Of a stretch of DNA of 64,000 bases, positions 45,505 to 49,332 are shown piece after piece. Numbering within the stretch: the first letter of the stretch is position 1; the number at the start of each line of letters is the position of its first letter. Where the stretch lies: the NCBI GenBank assembly GCA_025059995.1, contig JANXCF010000002.1:372001-436000 (forward strand), read 5' to 3'. The notes beneath the pieces are model-generated. The model was not told the origin of the DNA. It saw only the letters and a list, made by a program, of their open reading frames with translations, and searched no databases. The DNA is from Leptospiraceae bacterium (GTDB taxonomy: Bacteria; Spirochaetota; Leptospiria; Leptospirales; Leptonemataceae). The position numbers were made by a program, and so were the translations under genes.

Positions 45505-46518
45505 ATGAAAAAGTTTCTTTTGTTTTTGGTTATTGGTATTGTCGTGATTTTGTTTCTTCTATTGGGAGTTCTTCTTCCGGTTTATTTTATATACCAAAAT
45601 GGGAAAGGATTTATTGCTGAAATCCAAGAGCAAACCAAACAAAGGGCTTATGAAATCGCTATTGCTTTGGATACCATGAGTGGGGAGAGTTTTTACTATG
45701 ATAACTTTATTTCTCTTAGTAATGTGATGGCAAAAGTAATTGAGTACAGCAATCAAAGGGATGATCCTTTTAGAATTAAAGAAATCTTCTTGTTGGATAA
45801 TCAAGGAAATCTAATAGCCCATAATAATATTGTCAAAGTTGCGAAGTCCTTTCAGCCGAAATACGAAAAAGAAACCTTTCGATGGGATGAAGTTCGCTTT
45901 CAGGGTAATCCCGTAGAGCTCAAAATCACGGGCTTTGCAAAGTTGGAATTACCCGAAGAATTCGCTCTTTACGAAAAGATACTCTTTTTTGTTCCAGTCA
46001 GAAAGATAGTTGAAAATAGTTTAAAAAAGCATCTTCCTGAACTTTTGGCAAATGAATATCACATCATTACCTCTGTTTATCCACCGGATGAAGTATTACC
46101 CAAAGCAACGTTGCATATTTTGATACAAAATCAAGGGATACAAAAAGTAACATCTTACTGGTTCGGGGAATTGTTGAAAAACTTTATGATCTTTTTGGGG
46201 ATTTTTGTCATAGTTTTATTGAGTATGATAACTTTTTTTATTTTGAAAATGGTACCTAAGCCCACAGATGATGATACAAAACAAAATCAAGCCAAAAAAG
46301 AACCAACTTACGAAGAAGAGGAATTGCCATTAGAACCCATTAAAGTAGAAGACATCGATACTGACAAAGATTTAGAAAAAGAAAAAAAAGAAGTCAGTAT
46401 GAGCTCTAAAGTCATTCCTTTTGAAGAAGCCCAAAAACTAAAAATAGAAAAAGAAAAAAAAGAAGAAAAATTTCCAACAATAAACGAAAATATAATGGAT
46501 GCAGTACCCTTAGAGTAG
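45505..46518 (+). CDS. Two-helix membrane protein with periplasmic sensor-like domain
   Basis: A 337-residue protein with a transmembrane helix at 4-30, a periplasmic domain of about 190 residues, a second helix at 226-248 and a highly charged cytoplasmic tail (250-337, rich in Lys, Glu and Asp). The periplasmic part includes a strand pair of the type IKEIFLLDNQGNLIAHNN, like Cache-family sensors. No kinase, HAMP or cyclase domain follows, so the tail must act by protein contact if it signals at all. The frame continues upstream to a TTG without a ribosome site; the ATG at 45505 fits the membrane signal. The next gene starts seven bases later. Confidence 0.68.
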   Translation: MKKFLLFLVIGIVVILFLLLGVLLPVYFIYQNGKGFIAEIQEQTKQRAYEIAIALDTMSGESFYYDNFISLSNVMAKVIEYSNQRDDPFRIKEIFLLDNQGNLIAHNNIVKVAKSFQPKYEKETFRWDEVRFQGNPVELKITGFAKLELPEEFALYEKILFFVPVRKIVENSLKKHLPELLANEYHIITSVYPPDEVLPKATLHILIQNQGIQKVTSYWFGELLKNFMIFLGIFVIVLLSMITFFILKMVPKPTDDDTKQNQAKKEPTYEEEELPLEPIKVEDIDTDKDLEKEKKEVSMSSKVIPFEEAQKLKIEKEKKEEKFPTINENIMDAVPLE

Positions 46519-46525
46519 GAGAACT

Positions 46526-47674
46526 ATGGGAAATCAAACCATTCAAGATATTCTCGCAAATCGAGTGGCGTTTTTGACTCTTAAAGGGGATCTACGAAAT
46601 GGCAATGCCTTGTCTTTTAAAAAAAGCATCTTTCATCTACCGGAAAATAAAGATTTTTTGATTTTGGATTTGACGAATTTAAATTCTATCTCAGGAGAAG
46701 GCATTAAGGTTTTTGTTGAGAGCATTAAGTATTTCAAAAAAAAAAATGGAACCATTGTAGGGATACAACCCAAAGAGGAAGTTTATCTACTCCTGAGATT
46801 TTTACAGCTACTGCCTTATATTAAACTGGTTGGTAGCTACGAAGAAGCGAAAGAATATATCGTATCGCAACTACAAACCACAAAAACTCAAACCTTCAAC
46901 ATTGAAGAAAAACATTGGGATGAGATTTTTCAAAAAATTGAGGATTTAAAGACCAATCTCACCAATGCCATAGCCATACAAGAAGAAACTTCGAATTCCC
47001 CATCAAACCCAAAATCTCAAGAGACCAACAAGCAACAAGAAGATCATTACGTTGAAGTCAAAATCTTAAATGAATTTACAAAAAGGCAGGAAGAGTCCAT
47101 AAAACAGCTCGAAGGTTTAAAAGAAAACATTCACAATATCAAAGATCAGCTTCAGAAAATCACTCAACGTTTGGACAAACAAGAATCACCAAACCAACAA
47201 AAAGAATTGATCAATCACATAAACAGTAAAATCCAAGAAATCAAATCCTACAATGAATTTCATTTTCGGGAATTCCAAATTCAGTTAAACCAACTCAAGG
47301 AAAATCAGAAGAACTTCGACGAAACCCTCACTTCGATTAAAAACGAACTACAAGAAGTCAAACAAGCAATCCAATCAGTCAAAGTAGAAAAAGTAGAAAA
47401 ACTTGAATCCAATGTAAAAACAGACCTGCAAAAAGAATTCAAAGAACTACAGAAAACCAATAAAGAAGAACCCAAAGTACAAGGCGAAACCCCCAAAACC
47501 GAAACCCCTCCGAAAAAAGAAATCAAAAGAATTGATGGTTATATCATAATTCGGTGTCAAAACTGTGGTCAATTACTACGAGTCTATCAAGAAGGAAAAC
47601 ACCTTTGTCCCAAATGTAAGTCCGAGTTTATGGTTTTACCAAAAGGTGAGGTAAAATTTTTTGAACCTTTGTGA
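46526..47674 (+). CDS. STAS domain, coiled-coil and zinc-ribbon protein
   Basis: A 382-residue cytoplasmic protein of three parts. Residues 1-115 form a STAS (anti-anti-sigma-like) domain (FLILDLTNLNSISGEGIKVF). In the usual D-S-S-G phosphosite the residues are Ser54-Ile55-Ser56-Gly57, so the phosphorylatable serine is replaced by Ile. Residues about 120-330 are a long, charged, partly Gln-rich coiled coil. Residues about 340-375 form a zinc ribbon with two CxxC pairs (CQNCG and CPKCK). TAGGAG precedes the ATG. Its stop overlaps the murJ GTG start by four bases. I know no named family with this combination; a scaffold linking the upstream membrane protein to MurJ is inferred. Confidence 0.72.
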   Translation: MGNQTIQDILANRVAFLTLKGDLRNGNALSFKKSIFHLPENKDFLILDLTNLNSISGEGIKVFVESIKYFKKKNGTIVGIQPKEEVYLLLRFLQLLPYIKLVGSYEEAKEYIVSQLQTTKTQTFNIEEKHWDEIFQKIEDLKTNLTNAIAIQEETSNSPSNPKSQETNKQQEDHYVEVKILNEFTKRQEESIKQLEGLKENIHNIKDQLQKITQRLDKQESPNQQKELINHINSKIQEIKSYNEFHFREFQIQLNQLKENQKNFDETLTSIKNELQEVKQAIQSVKVEKVEKLESNVKTDLQKEFKELQKTNKEEPKVQGETPKTETPPKKEIKRIDGYIIIRCQNCGQLLRVYQEGKHLCPKCKSEFMVLPKGEVKFFEPL

Positions 47675-49332
47675 GTTCTAGTGCTAAAGCTTCTGTAAAA
47701 CTGACTTTTTTGACTTTCATTTCTCGGATATTGGGGCTAATTCGAGATCATTTGTTAGCAAGATCCTTTGGAACGGGAATTTATTCTACTTACTGGGAAA
47801 TAGCCTATATGTTTCCCAACATGCTAAGAAACTTATTGGCAGAAGGAGTTCTTTCTCAATCCTTTGTTCCCTTGTATTCTTCTTCGCTAAAAGAATCTGA
47901 AGAGAAAGCAAAACGAGATTTTGGGATAATCGTGGTGGTAGTTGGGATATTCGTTGGGTTCGTGGTGCTTTTTGGGATTTTTCTTTTTCCGATTGTGTTG
48001 CCTTACTATGTAGGCAAGCCCAAAGAGGAGATCGAACTTTTGATTTTGGTTTCTCAAATAGTGTTTCCTTTTATTTTTTTTATTAGCCTTTCTTCCGTTT
48101 ATGCGGGGGTTCTGAATACCCATCAAAAATATGTGGTCCCAACTTTGTCGCCAATCCTACTTAATATTGATTTTATTATTACTTTACTTCTTGTAGGGGT
48201 TTTATCGCATTTTTATTTTTTCCCGAAAGATAAGGTTTTGATTCTTTTGGGGGTGATGGTAGTAGTAGGAGCTGTCTTTGTTTTAGGAATGCATGTTTAT
48301 TTTGTTCATAAGTATCAATGGAGTCCTAAGTTCTTTTTTACAAAGGATTTTGGGAATGAACCCGTCATAAAGGATTTGCTTCGATTGGTGGTGCCTGCGA
48401 TTTTGGGAGCAAGCATTTTTCAGTTAAATCAACTCATAGATATTTTTTTAGCAAGCTATTTGGTTTCGATTGAAGGGGCTATCCCAGCTTTGAGGTTCGC
48501 CCATCGTTTGATTCAATTACCCACTGGTTTGATTGGGGTTGCCATATCTACTACGATTTTACCTACGATTGCTTTGTTTATTCGTAAGGACGTATCCCTC
48601 GAGAAAATAGGACAAGAAGTGATTTTTGCTTTGAGGTTTTCTTTCTTCTTGACCATTCCCGCCTCCTTAGGACTTTTTTTGATGGGTCCTTGGATTGTTC
48701 ATTTTTTGTTCTCTGGTGGACTTTGGGATTTAGGTTCTACTTTCATTACTTTGTGGACCTTACAGTTTTATTCATTGGGGATTCCTTTTTATAGTGCGAA
48801 TAAAATATTGACTTCGGTTTATTATGCATATCAAGATACAAAAACTCCCATTCGGATTTTACTTTTTGTGGTTGTTTCGAACTTGATTTTGAACTTACTT
48901 TTGATACCGTTTTTACAACATGGTGGTTTGGCTTTGAGCACTTCCTTGAGCTCTCTTTTGAATTTTATTTTGCTAATTTATTTTCTGCGATTTAAAGCCA
49001 TAAAATTGCCTTTTGACCTCCTCAAAGACTTTTTGAAAAAACAAGCCATTTTGATGATTCTAATGTTTTTGTTTTTGAGTGTTGTTTTATTCTGGTTTCC
49101 TTTTCCGTTTCAAGAAAATCGTTTTGATGTTGATTTTCTTTTCCAGTTGAATCAGCTAGATCATGAAACCCTAAAAGCTCCAGAAGAAATCCCCAGTCGC
49201 TGGGTCTCGCTATGGGTTTTGGTTCTCGCTATTGGCGGAAGTATCCTTCTATATTTTTCTCTTTCTAAGGTGTATCTCAAAGAAGAAATGAATATCATCC
49301 TTAGCTACTTACAAAGAAAAAAAATGGCATAA
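47671..49332 (+). CDS. murJ: Lipid II flippase MurJ
   Basis: Moves lipid-linked peptidoglycan precursor across the inner membrane. The 553-residue protein has about fourteen predicted helices in the MATE/MOP fold. N-terminal landmarks are FISRILGLIRDHLLARSFG and MFPNMLRNLLAEGVLSQSFVPLY (quoted in part: RILGLIRD, NLLAEGVLSQ); LRFAHRLIQLPTGLIGVAIST follows in the middle. Start is GTG within GTGA, overlapping the stop of the STAS gene, so expression is coupled. A soluble linker between the late helices near residues 480-510 is longer than usual. It is third in the sensor-STAS-murJ operon. Confidence 0.93.
   Translation: MSSSAKASVKLTFLTFISRILGLIRDHLLARSFGTGIYSTYWEIAYMFPNMLRNLLAEGVLSQSFVPLYSSSLKESEEKAKRDFGIIVVVVGIFVGFVVLFGIFLFPIVLPYYVGKPKEEIELLILVSQIVFPFIFFISLSSVYAGVLNTHQKYVVPTLSPILLNIDFIITLLLVGVLSHFYFFPKDKVLILLGVMVVVGAVFVLGMHVYFVHKYQWSPKFFFTKDFGNEPVIKDLLRLVVPAILGASIFQLNQLIDIFLASYLVSIEGAIPALRFAHRLIQLPTGLIGVAISTTILPTIALFIRKDVSLEKIGQEVIFALRFSFFLTIPASLGLFLMGPWIVHFLFSGGLWDLGSTFITLWTLQFYSLGIPFYSANKILTSVYYAYQDTKTPIRILLFVVVSNLILNLLLIPFLQHGGLALSTSLSSLLNFILLIYFLRFKAIKLPFDLLKDFLKKQAILMILMFLFLSVVLFWFPFPFQENRFDVDFLFQLNQLDHETLKAPEEIPSRWVSLWVLVLAIGGSILLYFSLSKVYLKEEMNIILSYLQRKKMA

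Follow-up and report, generated by a model that had tools for sequence, protein, structure and literature searches.

A gene for a membrane sensor-like protein (gene 1) and a gene encoding a STAS domain with a zinc ribbon (the STAS–zinc-ribbon gene) form a widely conserved entity in spirochaetes, and the lipid II flippase gene murJ is a lineage-specific operon partner of this pair. The pair was characterized in a 64,000-nucleotide stretch of the genome of a Leptospiraceae bacterium (assembly GCA_025059995.1, contig JANXCF010000002.1, positions 372,001 to 436,000 of the forward strand; hereafter, the window) and in relatives of that genome. On balance, and with moderate confidence, the pair is read as a spirochaete receptor-adaptor module derived from partner switching, the arrangement of a sensor phosphatase, a STAS antagonist and an RsbW-type kinase. 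The features of the window on which this reading draws were as follows:

45505..46518, + strand: gene 1, membrane sensor-like protein of 337 residues (open reading frame (ORF) reading and alignment)
46492..46515, + strand: conserved peptide at the C-terminus of gene 1, IMDAVPLE in the window and DAIP[VIL]-like across the family (alignment; candidate docking motif)
46526..47674, + strand: STAS–zinc-ribbon gene, 382 residues (PF01740 match and profile alignment)
46685..46699, + strand: STAS loop Ser54-Ile55-Ser56-Gly57-Glu58, with the Gly57 codon at 46694-46696 (SpoIIAA profile alignment)
47555..47617, + strand: zinc ribbon CxxC...LCPxC, formed by Cys344, 347, 361 and 364 (homologue alignment)
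47671..49332, + strand: murJ, lipid II flippase of 553 residues with a GTG start (PF03023 and TIGR01695)

A first-pass annotation of this DNA had described three ORFs spaced by 7 bases and by an overlap of GTGA, and re-reading of the coordinates bore this out. Gene 1 and the STAS–zinc-ribbon gene were spaced by 7 bases (46518 to 46526), and the stop of the STAS–zinc-ribbon gene and the start of murJ shared four bases, GTGA, at 47671-47674.

Gene 1, the STAS–zinc-ribbon gene and murJ were each located independently in 61 genomes, namely the window's own and 60 relatives. In the 35 genomes of the class Leptospirae entered in the gap table, the STAS–zinc-ribbon gene came immediately after gene 1 and in the same direction, at a spacing of -20 to +36 bases. 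A gene 1 profile detected relatives in 98 of the 296 Spirochaetota genomes, a count that includes sensors fused to a phosphatase. All 33 further gene 1 loci that were fetched adjoined a co-directional STAS–zinc-ribbon gene, and 32 of them came from six families outside the Leptospirae; at five of the 33 the partner was first hidden by overlapping antisense ORFs and was then resolved. The two genes have therefore stayed together in many families of spirochaetes, groups related to Leptospira among them. The NCBIfam family NF047550 (the LIC_12071 family), to which gene 1 is homologous, had no match in 14 control genomes from outside the Spirochaetota.

The gene 1 protein consisted of a transmembrane helix, a periplasmic domain of about 190 residues, another transmembrane helix and a long, low-complexity cytoplasmic tail, the two helices being apparent from the sequence. 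The tail held no catalytic domain, in agreement with the first-pass description of a protein without an output domain. No Pfam family scored above its cut-off. Against NF047550 the protein scored 45.5 bits (cut-off 350), making it homologous but not an equivalog. Homologues of gene 1 in family f2 reached 315 bits and were followed by the same STAS–zinc-ribbon gene. NF047550 carries no assigned function as a family. One expression table lists LIC12071, annotated as hypothetical, as 2.08-fold up in host-adapted cells (PMC3953431). The open-licence literature yielded no paper on the function of LIC12071, on STAS–zinc-ribbon proteins or on STAS control of MurJ.

The periplasmic domain carried an 'AHN/AHSD' motif (H106) shared by the family. 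A Cache-like nature, judged by this motif, the order of secondary structures and non-significant fold matches, is plausible but not proven. The dCache_1 profile matched one of 36 gene 1 members (E = 0.0044), and an AlphaFold model of gene 1 built from two sequences was of low confidence, with a predicted local distance difference test (pLDDT) score of 46.7. Fold matches of the periplasmic domain included the sensor domains of PhoQ, WalK, TlpC and chlamydial RsbU, all at E = 0.05 or worse. Structure prediction throughout covered sequences of the window and of one other locus, L004.

The extreme C-terminus of gene 1 was conserved, a feature that the first-pass annotation had overlooked, as it had the STAS–zinc-ribbon genes lying beside a SpoIIE phosphatase in some spirochaetes. 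A DAIP-like peptide closed 69 of the 69 gene 1 homologues examined. The 36 aligned gene 1 proteins were 14-46% identical to the window protein; the sole invariant column of their alignment was Ala333 (A333), and Asp332 was one of two nearly invariant columns; both residues fall within the last six. The tail before the peptide varied in length and sequence. Other Leptospirae proteins ended in ILDAIPL, ALDAIYLD or ILDAILIE, and those from outside the class in IKDAIPV, IRDAIPI and similar peptides. A loose pattern, [DE]A[IVYQ], occurred in the last 25 residues of 35/37 and 30/32 sequences, where shuffled tails would be expected to give 1.8 and 2.1; the four sequences without it had DAL or NAI variants. 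A search of six genomes for proteins ending in DAIP[VILM] gave seven matches. One lay at the gene 1 locus of genome G131 and none of the other six ended a plausible protein, so the end peptide looks private to gene 1. A variable tail closed by a conserved peptide usually marks a docking site. The receptor of this peptide may be the co-encoded STAS–zinc-ribbon protein, as the constant linkage of the two genes suggests.

The STAS–zinc-ribbon protein was built of a STAS domain (residues 12-108; PF01740, 39.8 bits, cut-off 22.6), a coiled-coil linker and a C-terminal zinc ribbon. The STAS domain and CxxC/CxxC ribbon named in the first-pass annotation were thus recovered, and the four ribbon cysteines were invariant in 72 of 72 homologues. 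The STAS family profile matched anti-sigma-factor antagonists best (4hyl, E = 8e-15; SpoIIAA, E = 4e-14). Against TIGR00377 the window's STAS domain scored 32.8 bits, below the curated cut-off of 53.45. In SpoIIAA-type proteins the loop serine is phosphorylated by RsbW-type kinases. Profile alignment to SpoIIAA placed the column of this phosphoserine at Gly57 of the window protein and ruled out Ile55, the position given in the first-pass annotation. The serine reported there as missing was indeed missing from the window; among homologues, the column held Ser in 67 of 72 (32/37 Leptospirae and 35/35 of a second set), and the loss was limited to the four of four species of the window's genus (Gly) and to genome G008 (Asn).

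The coiled coil of about 200 residues noted at first pass was present in the window and was not conserved, since most relatives had a shorter, low-complexity linker; it was consequently rejected as a defining feature of the family. The longest coiled-coil-like linkers belonged to the window's genus. Two species of another genus (L038 and L045) kept the serine despite a coiled-coil-like stretch, and a link between loss of the serine and a long coiled coil is therefore suggestive only.

The proposed relation to partner switching draws on loci where the STAS–zinc-ribbon gene had catalytic neighbours. The locus L120:96-3135 (genome G058) encoded a gene-1-like sensor-HAMP-SpoIIE protein, a STAS–zinc-ribbon protein and a HATPase_c_2 kinase, which is a complete partner-switching set in the classical gene order. 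At L124 a sensor-SpoIIE protein was paired with a STAS–zinc-ribbon gene, and at L122 a sensor-SpoIIE protein was followed by a STAS gene truncated where the contig stops. The periplasmic parts of L120, L122 and L124, taken alone, matched the gene 1 profile at E = 1e-6 to 5e-9. SpoIIE, STAS–zinc-ribbon and RsbW-type kinase genes stood in a row at L125-L128. Altogether, an RsbW-type kinase was found beside a STAS–zinc-ribbon gene and SpoIIE at five loci, and a gene-1-like sensor was found on the phosphatase at three loci. The last residues of the L120 phosphatase, EEIPVARKV, resemble the gene 1 end peptide.

Rsb/SpoIIA partner switching with the sensor phosphatase RsbU, for example the chlamydial RsbU-RsbV-RsbW system (PMC11619594), likewise combines a sensor with a STAS antagonist that has an ISSxG/DSSG-type loop. 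Unlike that system, gene 1 of the window and of most spirochaetes lacks the phosphatase domain and has a tail closed by the conserved peptide. The STAS protein further differs in having a C-terminal zinc ribbon, in having no linked kinase and, in the window's genus, in having lost the phosphoserine. The genome of the window contained 13 SpoIIE and six HATPase_c_2 matches, which could act in trans; none was beside the pair. One open frame lying beyond the window and about 900 residues long (G000:C2:349169-350164) joined SpoIIE phosphatase and HATPase_c_2 kinase domains, and frames of about 900 residues with HATPase_c_2 recurred in many relatives.

From the conservation of the pair, the end peptide, the architecture, the SpoIIE and RsbW neighbours in some relatives and the loss of the serine, we infer a mechanism that proposes docking, switching, output and a direction of evolution. 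Gene 1 would have retained the periplasmic sensor and membrane helices of a sensor phosphatase; it has no PP2C (SpoIIE) domain. Its flexible tail, ending in the DAIP-like peptide, most likely anchors the STAS–zinc-ribbon protein at the membrane. In the Ser-bearing lineages, which are most of them, an RsbW-type kinase would phosphorylate the adaptor and a SpoIIE phosphatase in trans would dephosphorylate it, and so set its state, as retention of the STAS serine suggests. Gly57 and the long coiled coil make it probable that the adaptor of the window's genus is blind to phosphorylation and works as a constitutive membrane-tethered binder or scaffold. Co-translation of the pair with MurJ in the Leptospirales fits co-expression with envelope synthesis. 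Should the end peptide indeed dock the STAS–zinc-ribbon protein, the pair would represent a relative of partner switching with a receptor-adaptor architecture, and would offer a handle on how spirochaetes sense the periplasm. A more specific version is held tentatively and is the less probable: the phosphatase of a sensor phosphatase may have been replaced by a membrane receptor tail whose DAIP peptide keeps hold of the STAS–zinc-ribbon partner, giving phosphatase-free partner switching in many families of the phylum. The window's genus may have taken a further step, its adaptor becoming a coiled-coil scaffold that is phosphorylation-dead and is co-translated with MurJ.

Several observations weigh against a derivation from partner switching. 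Sensor similarity at L125-L128 was not significant (periplasmic part alone, E = 0.02-0.3). Neither kinase nor phosphatase lay beside the pair in the window or at loci where gene 1 lacks PP2C, and the window's own STAS domain is without the phosphoserine. The phosphatase-fused sensors mostly lacked the DAIP peptide. In addition, an AlphaFold model of the L004 gene 1–STAS read-through fusion (TAA taken as Gly; three sequences) showed no docking of the peptide, which was itself modelled with low confidence (pLDDT about 24-31).

The identity of the window's MurJ was unambiguous (PF03023, E = 2.4e-87; TIGR01695, 296.4 bits, cut-off 235.55). It was a normal member of its family, with no difference seen, and its operon context was the one unusual feature. 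The murJ gene adjoined the pair in 18 genomes, 15 from family f1 and three from family f2, all of which belong to the order Leptospirales, and the trio is thus not confined to the genome of the window. The four-base overlap of the STAS stop and murJ start occurred at nine loci from several genera. In genome G015 and in genus g15 of family f2 (G023, G026 and G029), murJ was on another contig, and in families f3-f6 and at all non-Leptospirae loci it was elsewhere than the pair. In G008 murJ was 5 kb from the pair; at that locus (L041:7873-13226) about 5.3 kb, including some genes on the opposite strand, separated it from the STAS–zinc-ribbon gene, whose phosphoserine position held Asn.

The first-pass annotation had suggested that a sensor and a STAS adaptor could regulate MurJ. 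The sensor and the adaptor are supported; for MurJ regulation, the evidence is lineage-specific operon structure. The idea that the pair senses the state of the envelope and directly controls or localizes MurJ, and with it the flipping of lipid II, perhaps at a zone of growth, is considered unlikely. It is consistent with the trio in 18 genomes of two families, with the shared overlap at nine loci and with a murJ adjacency that outlasts wider synteny, as family f2 has no purA or HisS/HisZ-like gene at this place and kept murJ in three genera. However, the pair was present without a nearby murJ in g15, in f3-f6 and at 32 non-Leptospirae loci, and G013, a 91%-complete family member, had MurJ and no gene 1. 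Since the pair occurs without murJ nearby in one Leptospirales genus and outside that order, murJ is not the general target of the module, and the murJ positions in the 61 genomes led to rejection of the pair as MurJ-specific in general. Regulation of MurJ by the pair would agree with the overlap conserved in the Leptospirales, yet the module exists without MurJ. In this order the overlap also brings a possible connection with cell-wall synthesis within reach of direct tests.

A better supported alternative, though still a minority possibility, is that the murJ linkage is a neutral or expression-level operon arrangement of the Leptospirales and that the pair is unrelated to the cell wall. The aldehyde dehydrogenase gene on the other side of murJ was also syntenic, so that co-expression is enough to explain the linkage of the pair and murJ. 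In family f1 this gene was kept after murJ, and purA and the HisS/HisZ-like gene before the pair, which makes the block also simply syntenic, and the location of the pair differed in other lineages. That two families have kept the tight overlap, on the other hand, suggests selection for co-expression, and an LpoB-like gene (PF13036) three genes from the pair at L102 (family f12) gives a weak hint of an envelope setting. A lipid transporter in which the STAS–zinc-ribbon protein serves as the MlaB-like STAS subunit and gene 1 as the membrane partner is a very improbable reading. The protein did match the STAS protein of 7ch8/7ch9/7cha, which we take to be Mla-type transporter entries, and a membrane partner gene is present; that match was weak (E = 1.9e-4) against the far stronger ones to 4hyl and SpoIIAA. 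The ISSxG loop and the SpoIIE and RsbW neighbours in some relatives also disfavoured MlaB-like transport, and no MlaE or MlaF gene was among the annotated neighbours.

No RNA families were found in the window, and scans for promoters and terminators did not rise above chance. Upstream of gene 1 and divergent from it were purA and the HisS/HisZ-like gene (window:43173-45421), which were kept across family f1. At L102:746-11018 the pair lay beside genes for a class-I adenylate cyclase, a rhodanese-domain protein, the LpoB-like protein and a PDZ protein. Genes of like size were similarly placed at L106, L116 and L117, and this conserved set was often found beside the pair outside the Leptospirae.

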